Below, in pieces: positions 746 to 33,228 of a stretch of 39,433 nucleotides of DNA. Every line of letters starts with the position of its first letter. Position 1 is the stretch's first letter. Under the pieces are notes generated by a model. That model ran no database searches, had not been told where the DNA came from, and saw only the letters and a list, made by a program, of their open reading frames with translations. The stretch lies in NCBI GenBank assembly GCA_011389655.1, contig JAABTX010000021.1:1-39433 (forward strand), read 5' to 3'. The stretch is from Thioalkalivibrio sp. Its GTDB lineage: Bacteria; Pseudomonadota; Gammaproteobacteria; Ectothiorhodospirales; Ectothiorhodospiraceae. The translations under genes were made by a program, and so were the position numbers.

Positions 746-2518
746 TCAGCGCTGGATGTCCTGGACGGATCCCAGGGAACGGATCCAGGGCTCGGTGGCG
801 CGTACCGCGGCGGGTAGATTCTCGAGGGCCTGTTCCGCGCCGGAGCGGGCGGCAAAACTGCCCGCCAGGGCCACGACGAAGTCACGTCCGTTGGAGCGGG
901 TGGGAACGTAGCGGATCCCCGTGAGCTGGTGCTGCTCGACAAACCGGCGCGCACCGTCGAGGTCCGGGGCGGCAATCAGCTGGATGGTCAAGTTGTCCGG
1001 GCTCTGGCGCGCAAGCCATTCACCGTCCTGGACAAGATCTGATGCCGTGGGCGCCGGCTCGGCCGCTGGGGTTGCGGGGCTCCCCGGTGCCTCGGAGGCG
1101 GTGGTCGCAGGCTCGGGGCGCGGCTCGGGTTCGGGCTCCGGCTCGGGTTCGGGCTCCGGCGCGGGTTCGGGCTCCGGCGCGGGTTCGGACTCCTCCGGGG
1201 ATGACGGGGCGGGCTCGGGGATCACCGGGGCATCCGGCGTTTCAGGGAGTGGCGGCTCGCGTGATTCCGGCTCGGCGGGCACCCAATCGTCGAAGGGCAC
1301 CTCCACCACGTCCTGGTCGTCAGGCCCGTCTGCATTGGAAGCGGGCCCGGGAGCCTCCTCGGGGGCGACCGGCAAAGGCAGCTGCACGGTGGTGCTCGGT
1401 GGCGCCTCCGGGCGCTCGAAGAGATGGCGTGCAAACGGCGCCAGTATCAGGAAGGCCACCACCCCTGCCACGACCGGTACGAACCAGCTTCGGCTCCAGA
1501 ACGGTACCCTGTCTTGATCCGAATCCGAGGACTGCTGTTGCCAGCGGCCCGTGTACGGATCCCAGTCGTCTTCCGATGCTGGTTCCTGTTCCCGCTGGTC
1601 GGCCGCCTGCAGCGAGTCGCGCCGCCCGATCGGCCTGAGATCCTCCGGCGGTTCATCCGGCGGGTCCCCGGTCACGCCCAGCGGGGGCATGCCGCGCGCG
1701 AAGGCCGCCATCCGGTCGTCACGTAAGGGTTCCGGCTCCGGTGGCACTTCTTCTTCCTCGCCCCGGCGTGCCCGGCACAGTCGTTCCAGCCAGGCGTTCG
1801 CCTGATCGTTCAGCGCACCCGGCAGCCCCTTGCTGGCCGCCTGCAGGTCGGCGATCGCCTCCTCGGTGAGGATTTCGCCCGGGTCGGCCATGCCGGCCGC
1901 ACGCAGGCGGTGGGTGAGATACGCGGCTGTCTGTTCCAGGCTGAAGGGGCGCAACGTGAACCGGGCGATCTGGTGGTCGTCCGACGGACGCAGTTGCAGG
2001 CGTCGGCGCAGCAGGACCTGGTCGCCGACCAGCACCAGGCGCGGGGCGCGGCCTTCCACGCCCAGGATCTCTCCGCGCATGCGCAGTAGGATGTTGATGA
2101 TGTCCATGCCCAGCAGGTGGGCATCGTCCACCGCGATCACCGGGTCGAAGCCCGCGCGGATGCGCTCGCTCATCAGGTCGCTCAGGGCTCGGTCGGGATC
2201 GTCGTGACCACTGGCCTGCAGGTGGCTGCGGATGGTGAAGTCGACAGCCTCGAAGCGGGTGTTCATGCGCGCCCGGAACGCGATCAGCTCGAAGTTCTCG
2301 GGCAGGGAACCGAGCAGCCGCATCAGTTGCATGCTGCGGCCCGAGCCGATCTCGCCCGTGATCAGCAGGATCGCTCCGGACATGTCGATCGCCTGGCTGG
2401 CGGCAGTCACCGTGTCCTCGATCAGGCTGTCGGTGTAGATGAAGTTCTCGCTCGGCAGCGCGTCGAACGGGGCTTGCTGCAGCCTCAGCTCGGCCAGACA
2501 GTCGGGTTGCAGGGACAT
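746..2518 (-). CDS. damX: DamX-like protein: AAA-type ATPase domain, membrane segment, Pro-Glu linker, SPOR domain
   Basis: 590 aa. Residues 1-250 form an ExeA/AAA-type ATPase domain with a Walker A-like loop GEIGSGRS (55-62) and Walker B VIAVDDAH (127-134). The invariant Walker A lysine is arginine here. A charged segment follows, then one membrane helix (about 345-363), then a long Pro/Glu-rich periplasmic linker with many PE repeats. A C-terminal SPOR domain (about 510-582) should bind denuded septal peptidoglycan. E. coli DamX lacks the long ATPase part; the ATPase-SPOR form is known in other gammaproteobacteria beside aroB. Likely role: cell division. It starts 10 bp after dgt, so aroB-dgt-damX look like one operon. 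The symbol reflects architecture and position. Confidence 0.85.
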   Translation of the reverse strand: MSLQPDCLAELRLQQAPFDALPSENFIYTDSLIEDTVTAASQAIDMSGAILLITGEIGSGRSMQLMRLLGSLPENFELIAFRARMNTRFEAVDFTIRSHLQASGHDDPDRALSDLMSERIRAGFDPVIAVDDAHLLGMDIINILLRMRGEILGVEGRAPRLVLVGDQVLLRRRLQLRPSDDHQIARFTLRPFSLEQTAAYLTHRLRAAGMADPGEILTEEAIADLQAASKGLPGALNDQANAWLERLCRARRGEEEEVPPEPEPLRDDRMAAFARGMPPLGVTGDPPDEPPEDLRPIGRRDSLQAADQREQEPASEDDWDPYTGRWQQQSSDSDQDRVPFWSRSWFVPVVAGVVAFLILAPFARHLFERPEAPPSTTVQLPLPVAPEEAPGPASNADGPDDQDVVEVPFDDWVPAEPESREPPLPETPDAPVIPEPAPSSPEESEPAPEPEPAPEPEPEPEPEPEPRPEPATTASEAPGSPATPAAEPAPTASDLVQDGEWLARQSPDNLTIQLIAAPDLDGARRFVEQHQLTGIRYVPTRSNGRDFVVALAGSFAARSGAEQALENLPAAVRATEPWIRSLGSVQDIQR

Positions 2519-2528
2519 GGCGGCGGAC

Positions 2529-3692
2529 TCAGATCAGTGTGCGCAGGTCGAAGACACGCTGGTGTTCGTGGATGGCGAAACGGTCGGTCATCCCGGCGAT
2601 GTAGTCGGCGACCCCCCGCGCGAGACCGTGTTCGTCGGCCTCGGCCAACCGCCGCACATGCACCTGGAAGTGTTCGGGCAGCAGCTTGGTGTCCTCCATG
2701 AAGGCGAAGAACAGGTCGTTCACGATGCGTTCCGCCTTGACCGTCATCCGGTATACCCGATGGTGATGGTACAGGTTCTGACGCAGGAAGCGCTTGAGTT
2801 CCCGATTCTGGCGTGCGGTCTCCGGGCTGAAGCGGATCAGCGGTTCGGGGAAGCTCCGCGCCGCCTCCAGGCTGTCGACGCCAGCGCCGCGCAGGGCCTC
2901 GCGGCTGGCCGTGATCAGGTCGGAGGCCAGGGTGTCGATCATGCGCCGCACGGTCTCGTGGCGCACGCGGCGGGCCTCGAGGCCCGGATAGCTTCGTTGC
3001 ACCTGTTCATGCCGGACCCGGAACAATTCGACTTCGCAGAACTGCTCCATCGTCAGCAGGCCCGCGCGCAGTCCATCGTCGATGTCGTGGTTGTTGTAGG
3101 CGATCTCGTCCGCCACGTTGGTCAGTTGGGCCTCGAGACTTGGCTGACGGCCTTTCAGGAACCGCTCGGCGACCGGCCCGAGGCGGCGCGCATTGTCCGG
3201 CGAGCAGTGCTTCAGGATGCCCTCGCGGGTCTCGAAGGTGAGGTTCAGGCCATCGAACTCGGCGTAGTGCTGCTCCAGCAGGTCGACAATGCGCAGGGAC
3301 TGCAGATTGTGCTCGAAGCCGCCGTGATCGCGCATGCAGTTGTTCAGTGCCCGCTGACCGGCGTGGCCGAAGGGCGTGTGCCCGAGGTCGTGCGCCAGCG
3401 CGATGGCCTCGGTGAGGTCTTCGTTCAGCCCGAGCGCGCGAGCGCTGGAACGCGCGATCTGGGCCACTTCCAGGGAGTGCGTGAGGCGATTCCGGAACAG
3501 GTCGCCCTCGTGGCTGACAAAGACCTGCGTCTTGTATTTGAGGCGCCGGAAGGCCGTGCTGTGCACGATGCGGTCACGGTCGCGCTGGAATTCGCTCCGG
3601 TGATTCGGGGGCGGCTCGAGATGGCGCCGTCCCGCCGAACACTCGGCAACCGCCGCGTACGGCGCGAGCCGCGGCGCGACGACGGGGCTCAT
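2529..3692 (-). CDS. dgt: dGTPase-like HD-domain deoxyguanosinetriphosphate triphosphohydrolase
   Basis: 387 aa. It belongs to the HD-domain dNTP triphosphohydrolases, which split dNTPs into nucleoside and triphosphate. Metal-binding residues are visible: H72 in [14 protein letters not shown]101-D102 in [15 protein letters not shown], and a later Asp in [14 protein letters not shown]. The [11 protein letters not shown] and [14 protein letters not shown] blocks are typical of the shorter proteobacterial Dgt-like type, so substrate preference may be broader than dGTP. The frame stays open to 3797 inside aroB. I chose the ATG at 3692, 13 bp after the aroB stop, because the family begins just before LAPYA. 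The extra Arg/Pro-rich residues upstream look like read-through of aroB sequence. Confidence 0.9.
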
Positions 3693-3705
3693 TCCCGCTG
3701 GCGAC

Positions 3706-4812
3706 TCAGCCGACACCGGTTGCCCGGCTGGAGGTGACGGGCAGAGTGGCCTCCAGCGCCTCCGGTGGAAAGTCGGCAGTGACCACCGCCGCGCCAATCG
3801 CCTGCAGCAGGACGAGACGCAGCCGACCGTTCACCACCTTCTTGTCGATGGCCATCAGCTCGCGGAAGCGTGCGGCGTCGATCTGCTCCGGTGGATGCAG
3901 TTGCAGACCGGCCCGGGCGATCAGCGACTCGGCGCGTTCCCTGTCTGCCGGGTCCAGCCAGCCCATCGCCTCGGACATCCTGGCGGCCATGGCCATGCCG
4001 GTGCCGACCGCCTCCCCATGCAGCCATTCGCCGTAGCCCATGCCCGTCTCGATCGCGTGCCCGAAGGTGTGGCCGAGGTTCAGCAGCGCGCGCCGTCCGG
4101 ACTCGCGTTCGTCGGCGGCAACCACCTCCGCCTTGCAGGCGCAGGAACGGTGGATGGCCTCGATAACGATCTCCGGTTCGAGCGCCAGCAGGCGTTCGAT
4201 GTTTACCTCCAGCCAGTCGAAGAAGCCGGCGTCCTGGATGAGCCCGTACTTGATCACCTCCGCCACCCCGGCGCGCAGTTCGCGGGCCGGGAGCGTCCGG
4301 AGGGTGTCGATGTCGATGATCACCGCGCGGGGCTGGTGGAAGGCGCCGATCATGTTCTTGCCGAGGGGATGATTGACCCCGGTCTTGCCGCCCACGGAGG
4401 AGTCCACTTGCGAGAGCAGGGTGGTGGGCACCTGGATGAAGTCGATGCCACGCTGGTAGATGGCCGCGGCGAACCCGGCGACGTCGCCCACCACGCCGCC
4501 TCCGAATGCGATCAGGGTGGTCCCGCGGTCGAGCCGCGCCTGCAGCATGCGTGTAAGGATCGACTCCACCGTGGCCAGGGTCTTGAAGCGTTCCCCGTCC
4601 GGGAGGTCGATCCAGGTGAAGTCCTGGCCGTCGAGCAGGGCCCTGAGACGGTCGCCGTGGAGCGGCGCCACCGTCTCGTTGCTGACCACGACCAGGCGCT
4701 GCCCGCGCAGGTGCGGCCGCAGCACCTGCGCCTCGCGCAGCAGTCCCTCACCCACATGAATCGGGTAGCTTCTGGAACCGAGCTCGACGTTCAGGGTCTT
4801 CATGGCAGGCAT
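3706..4812 (-). CDS. aroB: 3-dehydroquinate synthase
   Basis: 368 aa. AroB converts DAHP to 3-dehydroquinate, the second shikimate step, using NAD and a divalent metal. Visible motifs are DGERFKTL, the nucleotide-binding [32 protein letters not shown], and the metal-ligand regions [12 protein letters not shown] and [10 protein letters not shown]. Three in-frame starts exist: 4881, 4812 and 4803. The ATG at 4812 has GAGGG ten bases upstream and gives a normal family length; the one at 4803 (MKTLNVELG) is the alternative. It is the first gene of aroB-dgt-damX and divergent from rpsU. aroK, its usual partner, is over 10 kb away on the other strand. Confidence 0.95.
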
Positions 4813-6778: not shown

Positions 6779-7097
6779 CGTGGCAGCGGCTTCCAGCCGC
6801 GCTGCCGATGCCGGTGCCGATCGCGGCCAGAGGCCGCTCCCACGAAGCCCAGCCCCCGAGTCACTGGGTGTGGTGTGGGAGCGGCTTCCAGCCGCGATGC
6901 CGGTGCCGGTGCCGATCGCGGCCAGAGGCCGCTCCCACGAAGCCCAGCCCCCGAGTCACTGGGTGTGGTGTAGGAGCGGCTTCCAGCCGCGATGCCAAGG
7001 CCGGTGCCGATCGCGGCCTGAGGCCGCTCCCACGGGTTCTCCAGCCCCGGGTCACTGGGTGTGGTGTGGGAGCGGCTCCCGGCCGGATCGGGTCCAG
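6779..7097 (+). repeat. REP array A: three asymmetric REP pairs plus a partial fourth, 95-bp period
   Basis: This fills the gap between the convergent hemE and 7099-7719 genes. Each unit has a forward REP arm with loop TTCCA (GGAGCGGC-TTCCA-GCCGCGAT) and an inverted arm reading ATCGCGGC-CAGAG-GCCGCTCC. A GCC/GGT-rich spacer separates the arms, and a linker containing GAGTCACTGGGTGTGGTG joins units. The loop position recurs at 6791, 6886 and 6981 (95 bp), then 7077 in a degraded copy. No credible gene is inside. Confidence 0.9.
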
Positions 7098-15993: not shown

Positions 15994-16420
15994 GAGCGAC
16001 CTCTGGTCGCGATGGGACGTGTGGGGAATCGCGGCTGGAAGCCGCTCCTACGGGGGCTTGGCCGGCCTTCGGGGTCGTGGGAGCGGCCTCTGGCCGCGAT
16101 GCCGTTGGTGCGTTGGGAATCGCGGCTGGAAGCCGCTCCTACCGGGGGCTTGGCTGGCCTTCGGGGTTTCGTGGGAGCGGCCTCTGGCCGCGATGCCGTT
16201 GGTGCGCTTGGCATCGCGGCTGGAAGCCGCTCCTACGGGGGGCTTGGCTGGCCTTCGGGGGCGTGGGAGCGGCCTCTGGCCGCGATGCCCTTGGTGCGCT
16301 TGGCATTGCGGCTGGAAGCCGCTCCTACGGGGGGCTTGGCCGGCCTTCGGGGGCGTGGGAGCGGCCTCTGGCCGCGATGCCCTTGGTGGGCTTGGCATTG
16401 CGGCTGGAAGCCGCTCCTGC
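15990..16420 (+). repeat. REP array B: five asymmetric REP pairs, about 92-bp period
   Basis: This covers nearly the whole gap between aroK and the convergent NTF2-like pair. Each unit is a forward arm with loop CTCTG (GGAGCGGC-CTCTG-GCCGCGAT) and an inverted arm ATCGCGGC-TGGAA-GCCGCTCC. Linkers contain GGCTTGGC and GGCCTTCGGGG. The TGGAA position recurs at about 16036, 16127, 16221, 16313 and 16405. The first unit has the GACCTCTGGTC variant. Frames through it encode only repeat text. Confidence 0.92.
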
Positions 16421-16442: not shown

Positions 16443-16877
16443 TCAGTGGGTTGACTGGCCGCCGCCGTCGGCGACGAAGACGCCGGCCGGGTTCGGGGGG
16501 GCGCGGCGCCCGTGGGAGGCGTGGTGCTGCATCAGCCGCCAGCCCTGTTCCAGCTTCCGGTAGGTCTGGCTGACGAAGATGGAGCCGGTGGGCGTGAGGT
16601 CGCCCGGTCGGGTCACGAGTTCCTCGGTGAGCAGGCAGGCGATTTCCTCCGTCTCGGAGCCTGCGACCAGCCGGGGCTCGATCCGGATGTTCAGCTCGCG
16701 TGAGAAGACCAGCAGCCAGCTCTCCATCACCTCCGCGACACCGCGGTGCGCGCGCGGGCTGCCCGGGTGCAGGCAGACGATATCGGGGCGCTCCGCCCAC
16801 ACAAGCATCATCGCCTCGATGTCCGCGGCCTGGAAGGCCGCGTAATAGGCGGCACGCGCCTGTTCAGGGGTCTTCAT
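16443..16877 (-). CDS. NTF2/SnoaL-like protein (copy 1)
   Basis: 144 aa. This small cone-shaped fold of the nuclear transport factor 2/SnoaL superfamily often binds small ligands or acts as a hydratase or isomerase; no function can be read here. Key text is EQARAAYYAAFQAADIEAMM, WAERPDIVCLHPG and GSIFVSQTYRKLEQGWRLMQHHAS. The C-terminus adds a Gly/Pro-rich tail. The frame is open to 16985, but the ATG at 16877 matches the paralogue's start. It lies 7 bp after copy 2, so they form one operon. Confidence 0.82.
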   Translation of the reverse strand: MKTPEQARAAYYAAFQAADIEAMMLVWAERPDIVCLHPGSPRAHRGVAEVMESWLLVFSRELNIRIEPRLVAGSETEEIACLLTEELVTRPGDLTPTGSIFVSQTYRKLEQGWRLMQHHASHGRRAPPNPAGVFVADGGGQSTH

Positions 16878-16884
16878 GCCAGGA

Positions 16885-17295
16885 TCAGTGCAGGCCGGCC
16901 GATTCCAGCGCCGGCGGCGGCGACGGATCCGGCGCGCCGTGATGCAGTACCATCTGCCAGCCCTCGGTGGTGTGCCGGTAGGCATTGGTGGCGAGGACTA
17001 CACCGCGGCGCTGGCCGTCCACAAAGAGCTGTTCGCGCACGTGGTGCACGACCAGGTTGCCGTGCCCCAGGACCACCACGTCCGTTGCCCGGACCACCAC
17101 GTCCTGCATCGCCGCGAGGATCTCGCCCCAGCTCTCCAGCACGGCCTCGCGGCCCTGGAGCCGCTCTCCGCCCGGGTGCACGCAGACGATGTCCGGATCG
17201 TCGGCCCAGACCTCCGTCATCATCGCCAGGCTGCCGTGCTCGAAGGCCTCGTAAAAGGCCTGCTCTGCAGACTGCGCGGATTCGTATCCAGCCAT
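16885..17295 (-). CDS. NTF2/SnoaL-like protein (copy 2)
   Basis: 136 aa, clearly paralogous to its downstream neighbour. AEQAFYEAFEHGSLAMM, WADDPDIVCVHPGG, VLATNAYRHTTEGWQMVLHH and the HPGG turn align along the whole length. I chose ATG 17295 because GCGGGGG lies six bases before it; the in-frame ATG at 17301 would sit right against that site. It is divergent from the sugar kinase. Function unknown. Confidence 0.82.
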   Translation of the reverse strand: MAGYESAQSAEQAFYEAFEHGSLAMMTEVWADDPDIVCVHPGGERLQGREAVLESWGEILAAMQDVVVRATDVVVLGHGNLVVHHVREQLFVDGQRRGVVLATNAYRHTTEGWQMVLHHGAPDPSPPPALESAGLH

Positions 17296-17395
17296 CGCCA
17301 TCCCCCGCTTGGTTTGCCCGGCATTGTAAGGCGGGGCGCGGCAAATGCCGACCATCCCGGTAAACTGTCGGCTGGTTTTCCGGGAGGCCCGCTCC

Positions 17396-18268
17396 TTGGC
17401 GCGCATTCTTGTCATTGGCAACGCGACCATCGATCACATCGTGGATCTGGCCGCGTACCCCGAGGAGGACTCGGAGGGACGGGCGCTGGGCAGCACTATC
17501 CGTCCCGGCGGCAACGCCGCGAACACCGCCGCGATCCTGACGCAGGCGGGGCATCAGGTCGACCTGGCGACCGTCGTCGCGGAGGGCCGCGCCGGCGAGC
17601 GTCTGCTGGAACTGCTGGCGGCGCGCGGCATCGGCATCGAACGCTGCGTACGGCGGCCGGGGCGCACCCCGACCTCCTGGATTATGCGCTCGCGCGCGAC
17701 TGGAAGCCGGACGATCGTGCACGATCGTGAACTGCCGGAACTGGACGTGGATGCCCTGCGCAAGGAGGAGCTCGCCGGCTACGACTGGTTCCATTTCGAG
17801 GGCAGGAATCCGGGTCAGCTCCCGGCGCTGCTGCGCAGCGTCCGCCGGGTCGCGGTGGATCAGCCGCTGTCGCTGGAACTGGAGAAGCCGCGGGAGGGCA
17901 TTGAAGGCAACCTGCTGCGCCTGGCCGACGTGCTGATGTTCGCGAGCGGCTGGGCCCAGGCGCATGGGCTGTCGGAGCCGGAGGCCTTCATCACCGGCGC
18001 GGCGCGGGCGCGGCCGGCGGCCGTACAGACGCTGACCTGGGGAAATCGCGGTGCCTGGATCGCGCAGCATGGTCGGACAGCCCACTGCACGCCGGCGGCG
18101 GGGCTGCAGGTGCGCGACAGCCTTGGCGCCGGAGACACCTTCAATGCCGGCCTGATCCACGCGCTGATCTCGGGTGAACCGCCGGAGCAGGCGCTGGAAC
18201 AGGCCGTGCGCCTCGCGGAACGGAAGCTGCAGCGCCCGGGGCTCGATCGCCTGTTCGAGGCGCCCTGA
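17396..18268 (+). CDS. ketohexokinase-like PfkB-family sugar kinase
   Basis: 290 aa ribokinase/PfkB-family kinase. It has the N-terminal glycine motif PGGNAANTA (37-45) and the catalytic block DSLGAGDTFNAG, with GAGD at 244-247. Several segments resemble animal ketohexokinase more than bacterial ribokinases: YPEEDSE, RTIVHDRELPELD and FHFEGRNP. The likely reaction is ATP-dependent phosphorylation of fructose or another ketose at C1, which is inference. I chose the TTG at 17396, which has GGGAGG eight bases upstream; an ATG at 17345 adds 17 residues without family match. It is divergent from the NTF2-like genes. Confidence 0.82.
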   Translation: MARILVIGNATIDHIVDLAAYPEEDSEGRALGSTIRPGGNAANTAAILTQAGHQVDLATVVAEGRAGERLLELLAARGIGIERCVRRPGRTPTSWIMRSRATGSRTIVHDRELPELDVDALRKEELAGYDWFHFEGRNPGQLPALLRSVRRVAVDQPLSLELEKPREGIEGNLLRLADVLMFASGWAQAHGLSEPEAFITGAARARPAAVQTLTWGNRGAWIAQHGRTAHCTPAAGLQVRDSLGAGDTFNAGLIHALISGEPPEQALEQAVRLAERKLQRPGLDRLFEAP

Positions 18269-18292: not shown

Positions 18293-18595
18293 TCAGGCGT
18301 GGCCGGCCGGGGTGTCCGTGGCGGAGTGGAAGTACTCGCTGTCGCGTCCCAGTTCGTCCACCAGTTCGCGCAGCACCGCGAGCCGGCTCTCCGGATCGCT
18401 GAACGGCGCGCAGGACTCGCAGAAGACGTCCCCGCAGGGCTGGCGGCTGTAGAGCCAGAAGTGAATCGCGCCCGCCAGCAGACCGTCGGCGACCTCGTGC
18501 ACGTCCGGGGAATGTCCGTCGGAGGAGAGCGTGTTGGCGAGGTCGATGAGTTTCTGCGCCGCGTTGTTGTAGGTTTCTTCGGTGATGTCGCTCAT
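18293..18595 (-). CDS. small conserved hypothetical protein with CxxxxCxxC
   Basis: 100 aa, not recognised. It is mostly helical (YNNAAQKLIDLANTLSS, VADGLLAGAIHFWLYSR) with a central cysteine cluster CGDVFCESC that could bind metal or form disulfides. An acidic helix (LAVLRELVDELGRDSEYFHSA) ends the fold. A GAGGT ribosome site lies before the ATG at 18595. It is convergent with the sugar kinase, with 24 bp between stops and no terminator seen. Confidence 0.72.
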   Translation of the reverse strand: MSDITEETYNNAAQKLIDLANTLSSDGHSPDVHEVADGLLAGAIHFWLYSRQPCGDVFCESCAPFSDPESRLAVLRELVDELGRDSEYFHSATDTPAGHA

Positions 18596-32750: not shown

Positions 32751-33228
32751 GGTGTCTCTCGTTTGTGGGAGGCGAGCGCTCTCGGCGATCCGGCGCCCGT
32801 GAAGGCCGCCCAGGAGGCTGGCTTCGTGTAGGAGCCGCCTCCGGCCGCGATGGCCCTGGGCACTCGACACAACGCTGCATCGCGGCTGGAAGCCGCTCCC
32901 ACGAGCACCCCTGCAGGAGCGAGCCGGCTCGCCCAAGGCCGGGGCGCCAAACGGGCACCCATCGCGGATGTCTCTTGTTTGTGGGAGGCGAGCCCGCGCG
33001 GCGATCCGGCGCCCGTGAAGGCCGCCCAGGAGGCTGGCTTCGTGTAGGAGCCGCCTCCGGCCGCGATGGCCCTGGGCACTCGACACAACGCTGCATCGCG
33101 GCTCGAAGCCGCTCCCACGAGCACCCCTGCAGGAGCGAGCCGGCGCGCCCAAGGCCGGGGCGCCAAACGGGCACCCATCGCGGGTGTCTCTCGTTTGTGG
33201 GAGGCGAGCGCTCTCGGTGATCCGGCGC
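32751..33228 (+). repeat. 216-bp tandem duplication (about 2.2 copies) containing REP pairs
   Basis: The sequence beginning GTGTCTCTCGTTTGTGGGAG recurs at 216-bp spacing (TG at 32753, 32969 and 33185). The third copy is cut after about 45 bp. Copies differ by only a few bases. Each holds a forward GCCTCCGGC arm, an inverted TGGAA or TCGAA arm, and a GGAGCGAGCCGGCTCGCCC palindrome. It occupies most of the 568-bp ptsP-argC gap. Confidence 0.92.

Follow-up and report, generated by a model that had tools for sequence, protein, structure and literature searches.

What would a kinase that phosphorylates ketoses at C1 do in a CO2-fixing cell, and for what reason would it be tied to a redox cofactor? 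The question is raised by a gene on contig JAABTX010000021.1 of Thioalkalivibrio sp., the analysed stretch of which, 39,433 nucleotides in all, is called the window below. It rests on an identity of at most 46% to human ketohexokinase (KHK), on the presence of the gene in 102 of 369 sampled genomes (94 with a RubisCO-family gene), and on its fusion to a Rieske domain at 17 of 98 loci. In animals, KHK catalyses the first step of fructose breakdown, and KHK-A is its low-affinity isoform of unclear role. Sequence comparison and structure modelling make it likely that the window gene encodes a bacterial member of the KHK family, an ATP-dependent kinase that in autotrophs would phosphorylate a ketose at its C1 hydroxyl.

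The first-pass annotation had the gene begin with TTG behind a strong ribosome site, and we retain this start: the open reading frame runs from 17396 to 18268 on the forward strand, with GGGAGG 8 nt upstream. An alternative in-frame ATG at 17345 gives a 307-aa version of the kinase. In alignment A1 (18 rows: the window kinase and 17 bacterial relatives), the relatives match the TTG-encoded MARIL start, several of their rows having been trimmed by us to the MARIL-equivalent position. The features of the gene are listed below; residue counts refer to 96 bacterial rows, i.e., the window kinase and 95 others, with the cut-off copies L050 and L120 excluded and L034/L075 and L035/L085 being the same contigs counted twice.

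17382..17387, forward strand: Shine-Dalgarno-like GGGAGG, 8 nt 5' of the TTG, read from the sequence
17396..18268, forward strand: ketohexokinase-type PfkB kinase, 290 aa, TTG start, in-frame stop; PF00294, 105 bits
17456..17485, forward strand: lid/clasp motif YPEEDSEGRA; D25 and R29 correspond to human D27 (87/96) and R31 (96/96)
17504..17530, forward strand: hinge motif PGGNAANTA; G39, N40 and N43 correspond to human G41 (96/96), N42 (96/96) and N45 (95/96)
17702..17746, forward strand: lid segment GSRTIVHDRELPELD; equivalents of R108 and H113, both 96/96
17789..17809, forward strand: FHFEGRN; equivalents of human H137 (96/96), E139 (94/96) and R141 (96/96)
18110..18148, forward strand: VRDSLGAGDTFNA, anion hole and catalytic base D247 (human D258, 96/96)

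The first-pass annotation also remarked on how few sugar genes lie nearby, which is right as far as we could see: the nearest genes encode two SnoaL-like proteins and a family-less 100-aa protein. No sugar-type gene was apparent among the neighbours recurring in at least three loci, as judged by eye with a few checked against Pfam. The 100-aa protein (18293-18595, reverse strand) carries a CESC motif, matches no Pfam family above cut-off, and adjoins the kinase in six compared loci. The window also contains tandem arrays at 6780-7085, 16028-16418 and 32753-33228, with periods of 95, 92 and 216 bp, respectively; the first two hold inverted-repeat units, e.g., GCGGCTTCCAGCCGC or variants.

The resemblance to animal KHK was originally drawn from short segments. 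YPEEDSE, RTIVHDRELPELD and FHFEGRNP are indeed present in the window kinase and align with human YPKEDSE, RTIVLHDTSLPD and IHIEGRN, all within one alignment spanning residues 3-285. A phmmer search of PDB sequences with the window kinase returned KHK as the best match (E ~5e-34, 121.5 bits), with ten distinct KHK sequences at 115.6-121.5 bits followed by ribokinase at 47.6 bits. With the A1 profile, KHK chains scored 291.8-302.9 bits and the next family, sulfofructose kinase, 99.7 bits. The relative L034, from a genome of another family, reached 252 bits against mouse KHK-A and 46% identity to human KHK, the highest bacterial figure given. None of the NCBIfam models reached its cut-off for the window kinase: ribokinase TIGR02152, the best-scoring, gave 58.8 bits against a cut-off of 299.65, 1-phosphofructokinase TIGR03828 gave 50.6 against 292, and fructokinase NF006957 gave 32 against 450.

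We built a tree of 48 rows comprising 31 bacterial rows, human KHK, 12 PfkB proteins of E. coli, three own-genome paralogues and one Haloferax larsenii kinase whose annotation goes no further than carbohydrate kinase. Human KHK joined all 31 bacterial rows in a single clade with support of 100/99, outside which fell the 12 E. coli proteins (YihV among them), the three own-genome PfkB proteins and the Haloferax kinase. Topologies forcing human KHK together with YihV or with RbsK were rejected (p-AU 0.012 and 0.007, respectively). The proposed phylogenetic check thus came out on the side of KHK, and placement inside fructokinase or adenosine-kinase groups was not seen, these groups being sparsely represented by the own fructokinase-like L003, the own nucleoside-kinase-like L002 and E. 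coli gsk as the root.

The AlphaFold2 model of the window kinase (pLDDT 96) agreed with this placement. Foldseek ranks 1-21 were all human or mouse KHK (TM 0.82-0.91), with YihV next. As to the beta-clasp homodimer of KHK, the lid strands and the D27 equivalent are present in the kinase, which was modelled as a monomer. Profile scores, tree, fold and substrate-pocket residues therefore support kinship with KHK, and the window kinase is a true KHK relative, apart from ribokinase, fructokinase and KDG kinase. This part of the first-pass interpretation stands; its other part, that such an enzyme would be unusual in a bacterium, does not.

According to the accessible text of a structural study, fructose in human KHK is contacted directly by D15, G41, N42, N45 and D258 and through a water molecule by E139 (PMC2651755). 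The five direct contacts are kept in the bacterial rows (D15, G41, N42 and D258 in 96, N45 in 95 of 96), and the window kinase has all of them: D13, G39, N40 and N43, with the base D247 in GAGD. The glycines of GAGD are found in 84 and 96 of the 96 rows. Nearby, the window kinase has E135, R137 and K164, equivalent to E139 (94/96), R141 (96/96) and K174 (95/96), while R31, R108, H113, H137 and R141 (human numbering) are invariant in all 96 rows, window included. The available text of a mutational study describes the human KHK alanine mutants D15A, N42A and N45A as inactive and gives lysine as the ribokinase residue at position 42; R141E retains 12% of the activity, and K174A of human KHK-A is listed among the active variants (PMC11332825).

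At the N42 position, E. coli RbsK and FruK have K, YihV P, YdjH D, the own L003 A and FrlD N. The arginine at R141 also occurs in YihV and L003 and the lysine at K174 in YdjH, so neither is exclusive to KHK; the complete KHK pocket set was absent from every other family in that residue comparison. On the adenine side, human C289 and E227 are replaced by L and N in the window kinase. Judged by its residues, this is a ketose C1-kinase pocket, with the identity of the acceptor (fructose) predicted at most. A lid arginine that is invariant in the 96 bacterial rows (T115 in human KHK-C) was considered as a sign of an anionic, phosphorylated substrate. Because the mouse KHK-A alignment also shows arginine there, it is no argument for such a substrate and was dropped as evidence.

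We assessed the distribution of the gene in several samples. The own genome has one copy (search with the window protein), and 37 of 58 sampled relatives matched the window protein at 1e-10, one of these 37, G050, giving a weak match of 51 bits. In an evenly drawn class sample of 369 genomes, searched with the profile at a threshold of 1e-20, 108 matched: 102 at 223 bits or more and six at 101 bits or less. The 102 high-scoring genomes, hereafter carriers, come from 55 families; with the gene in 102 of 369 class genomes, a predicted C1 ketose kinase of this kind can hardly be called unusual in a bacterium. In a phylum sample, 2 of 299 genomes matched at 1e-20, the draw and the query (a single protein) differing from those of the class sample.

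Named carriers among the best 80 of 258 matches belong to Thioalkalivibrio, Hydrogenovibrio, Thiomicrospira, Halothiobacillus, Thiothrix, Thiocapsa, Thiodiazotropha and Methylophaga; the same 80 include one Spirochaetaceae MAG and numerous gammaproteobacterial MAGs that carry no genus name. All of the named genera up to and including Thiodiazotropha are sulfur oxidisers, and the window's bacterium is probably one as well. On the Spirochaetaceae contig (L110, 5119-6138), the kinase groups with a Thiodiazotropha row (99/93), representing either a transfer or a binning error.

A RubisCO-family gene (1e-20, a count pooling RubisCO and RubisCO-like proteins) was present in 94 of 102 carriers versus 88 of 267 non-carriers, an odds ratio of 24 uncorrected for ancestry. 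After subtracting 13 genomes whose RubisCO match was weaker than 1e-100, the figures were 90 of 102 and 79 of 267, likewise uncorrected. Carriers with RubisCO span 50 families, and RubisCO is also present in the own genome. The link, which could stem from shared ancestry, has exceptions: no fewer than 30 genomes with RubisCO but no kinase belong to a carrier's family.

The kinase has a recurring partner. Of 98 kinase loci, 46 have a Rieske-type [2Fe-2S] protein, as a C-terminal fusion in 17 and as a same-strand downstream neighbour in 29 (the kinase-to-Rieske gap at L113 being 689 bp). The remaining 52, the window's genome included, have no Rieske neighbour; some of these contigs (L030, L083, L123 and L126 among others) end a few hundred bases after the kinase, so that absence of the Rieske gene is not established there. 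Pfam recognised both PfkB and Rieske domains in all three fused proteins tested (L053, L055 and L120, the last lacking part of the kinase). The cluster ligands C-x-H and C-x-x-H are kept in 17 of 17 fused Rieske domains, and two further cysteines are invariant, both in the 16 fusions that were aligned and in 13 stand-alone Rieske proteins. The AlphaFold2 model of the L053 fusion (pLDDT 91.7, pTM 0.73) has two confident domains joined by a weak linker.

The class sample gave a similar arrangement among the Rieske matches listed, the tally of which entered 141 of 142 genomes. Within these matches, the Rieske gene lies directly downstream in 38 of 102 carriers (fusions included), with -1 to 89 bp between it and the match to the kinase, and directly upstream in one; adjacency spans 25 families, and 20 of the 59 genomes with both genes have them apart. 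Co-occurrence exceeded expectation, with Rieske in 59 of 102 carriers versus 82 of 267 other genomes (p 2.5e-6, matches listed, ancestry uncorrected). On a quick tree of 97 rows, with loci at contig ends left unlabelled, the adjacent state required 13 changes and the fused state two.

The Rieske subfamily is not dedicated to the kinase, because 82 genomes among the matches listed have it without the kinase. RubisCO was tried as the reason for the Rieske link and rejected: it occurs in 32 of the 82 kinase-free Rieske genomes versus 137 of 287 others (p 0.17, matches listed). A relation to vertebrate RFESD was likewise rejected, none of the matches listed being so named and the best being b6f-type and dioxygenase ferredoxins. 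The own genome has no close Rieske homologue (best match weak, E 0.0012), which makes the partner dispensable.

Several gene arrangements around these loci were recorded. In the kinase-free genome L174 (898-4364), the Rieske gene (4026-4364, forward strand) is divergent from a RubisCO large-subunit gene (2352-3770, reverse strand), which is followed by what we take to be a small-subunit-like and then a CbbQ-like ORF. At L183 (4065-5961) and L179 (2376-4330), a kinase-free Rieske gene adjoins an ABC-transporter ATPase gene (Pfam-checked in L183 only) and a permease-like ORF. Eight loci, seven of them fused, have a Crp/Fnr-type regulator gene near the kinase on the opposite strand (Pfam-checked for the L052 gene only); in L052, L055, L057, L059, L080, L086 and L120, 400-906 bp separate it from the fused kinase-Rieske ORF, upstream of which it lies. 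Ten loci (L036, L069, L074, L078, L091, L102, L108, L112, L119 and L121) have large same-strand proteins of up to 1860 aa immediately 5' of the kinase, with varied mixes of cyclic-nucleotide-binding, rhodanese and C-terminal FGE-sulfatase (SUMF1-like) domains. An eleventh large upstream protein, in L122, has no Pfam match. In L175, a protein with cyclic-nucleotide-binding, rhodanese and FGE-sulfatase domains is found upstream of a kinase-free Rieske gene.

In the window itself, the kinase gene faces two SnoaL-like genes:

16443..16877, reverse strand: SnoaL_3 protein 2, in tandem with protein 1, start inferred; PF13474, 66 bits (tested as 16443-16874)
16885..17295, reverse strand: SnoaL_3 protein 1, divergent from the kinase, start inferred from relatives; PF13474, 71 bits (tested as 16885-17325)
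17296..17395, no strand: region of ~100 bp common to the divergent SnoaL-like and kinase genes, delimited by the two coding starts

The tandem SnoaL_3 pair also stands beside the kinase in G022, G453, G652 and G582. The window-type SnoaL is present in 74 class-sample genomes. At distances of up to 1200 bp, it neighbours the kinase in 11 genomes, divergently in all 11, and the Rieske gene in 23, divergently in 21, with SnoaL, kinase and Rieske all together in seven (the counts with Rieske being among the Rieske matches listed). These counts took in all 25 carriers that share a genome with this SnoaL type and 26 listed Rieske places, omitting those on other contigs or more than 5 kb away in G075, G365, G483 and G674. 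SnoaL, KHK and Rieske thus recur together as a neighbourhood, two members of which, SnoaL and KHK, are retained in the window.

Other sugar genes of the own genome bear on the origin and fate of the ketose. The PfkB protein L003 has fructokinase as its best PDB match and scores 76 bits with the NCBIfam fructokinase model, below cut-off; free fructose may thus already be handled. L001, a PfkB-type phosphofructokinase, clears the cut-off of the TIGR03168 hexose kinase model and stays under the cut-offs for 6- and 1-phosphofructokinase. A further protein, assigned by Pfam to the sucrose-synthase family at 57 bits, looks by eye like a sucrose-phosphate synthase with a phosphatase-like C-terminus. 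Taken with L003, this suggests that sucrose turnover may yield fructose, the phosphorylation of which need not be the task of the window kinase. Class I aldolase (PF00274) gave no match in the own genome and none in any control genome either, so this negative carries no weight.

In the catalytic cycle that we propose, ATP and the ketose would bind in the kinase cleft, D247 would take a proton from the C1 hydroxyl, and the ketose 1-phosphate would then leave. The acceptor would be a free ketose, either fructose or a related one such as ribulose or xylulose, supplied in autotrophic cells by sucrose turnover or by dephosphorylated sugar phosphates, and the 1-phosphate could re-enter metabolism via an aldolase or L001. 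In the relatives, the fused or adjacent Rieske domain would tie the kinase to the redox state of the cell, redox control being the simplest reading of the fusion, and the SnoaL-like proteins may work in the kinase's pathway.

The physiological acceptor of an enzyme with KHK fold and chemistry may be something other than free fructose. Candidates are a pentulose, a Calvin-cycle sugar phosphate (fructose 6-phosphate, sedoheptulose 7-phosphate or ribulose 5-phosphate) phosphorylated at C1, or another C6-modified ketose. The RubisCO-family gene in 94 of 102 carriers, the lack of fructose genes among the nearest neighbours and the presence of fructokinase-like L003 all agree with such an acceptor, as does the nearest other family, YihV, which uses a C6-sulfonated ketose and also has arginine at the R141 position. 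Against it, the five residues that touch fructose directly in human KHK are all retained, and the lid arginine (96/96), being shared with mouse KHK-A, makes no case for an anionic substrate. We regard a non-fructose acceptor as a serious possibility that falls somewhat short of probable. An ordinary fructose-6-kinase recycling sucrose-derived fructose would suit the sucrose-phosphate synthase-like gene, but the fructokinase score of 32 bits against a cut-off of 450, the placement with KHK by tree and fold, and L003 as the better fructokinase candidate make it very unlikely.

The Rieske partner invites the idea of a regulatory or sensor protein with a kinase fold, signalling through redox sensing by the Rieske domain, with catalysis secondary. 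The ligands kept in 17 of 17 fusions, the two additional cysteines that do not vary among 16 aligned fusions and 13 stand-alone proteins, and the opposite-strand Crp/Fnr-type gene near eight loci, seven fused (Pfam-checked in L052 only), fit this idea. It is nevertheless improbable given a catalytic base kept in 96 of 96 rows, GAGD glycines kept in 84 and 96, and 52 of 98 loci without a Rieske neighbour, although a few of these contigs end soon after the kinase. Chance resemblance in a generic PfkB kinase could be proposed, since GG and GAGD motifs are common to PfkB families, but the full-length alignment, the ~200-bit gap to the next family and the supported clade already refute it, leaving it a negligible probability. 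The preferred reading thus remains a KHK-family kinase acting on the C1 hydroxyl of a ketose. A bolder extension would make KHK a bacterial family of carbon-fixing cells, in which the Rieske domain switches, or depends on, Calvin-cycle-linked ketose C1 phosphorylation, and the animal enzyme a branch whose original substrate was not dietary fructose; we offer this as speculation and consider it rather doubtful.

KHK itself is well known, while the bacterial eukaryote-type branch with its Rieske link is apparently unreported: in literature judged mostly from titles and the openings of abstracts, we came across no description of a eukaryote-type KHK from bacteria or of any KHK-Rieske protein. A prokaryotic KHK has been described from haloarchaea (Haloferax, Haloarcula), where the enzyme makes fructose 1-phosphate; in the available text, these proteins are only distantly related to eukaryotic KHK, form a distinct cluster, measure ~40 kDa and lie in a fructose gene cluster, and theirs is reported as the first physiological function of a prokaryotic KHK (PMC11519228). 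They are likewise ketose kinases, as is predicted for the bacterial branch, and are set apart from it here by that published description only. YihV, the sulfofructose kinase of E. coli, is the nearest other family by profile and fold, a ketose kinase sharing R108 and R141; it differs in having P, T, V and I at KHK N42, N45, R31 and K174 and falls outside the KHK clade. The Rieske partner has the C-x-H and C-x-x-H ligands of known Rieske-type ferredoxins (PF00355: dioxygenase ferredoxins, b6f-type, NirD) and matches them in PDB profile searches, but is distinguished by extra invariant cysteines, GxCxxGPC in the aligned members, and by being fused to or beside a KHK-type kinase.

The closest known system is animal KHK (EC 2.7.1.3; human and mouse KHK-A and KHK-C). 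Descent of the animal enzyme from within bacteria by transfer was considered, and the two trees disagreed on it: in the 48-row tree, human KHK was nested in the bacterial rows and a bacteria-only clade was weakly rejected (p-AU 0.049), whereas in the 97-row quick tree rooted on YihV it fell outside all bacterial rows (SH-aLRT 92), each tree holding one animal row. The bacterial enzymes share with animal KHK the fold, a full-length alignment, the catalytic base, the fructose contacts, R141 and K174. They differ in a lid loop one residue shorter, in some adenine-pocket residues, in the possible C-terminal Rieske domain or neighbour gene, and in being mostly from RubisCO carriers. The Rieske link hints at a possibly redox-linked job for KHK-type enzymes. 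The lid motif of most bacterial rows, H-Y-R-D-L-P, resembles H-A-Y-R-N-L-P of mouse KHK-A, and the bacterial branch may therefore bear on the role of that isoform.
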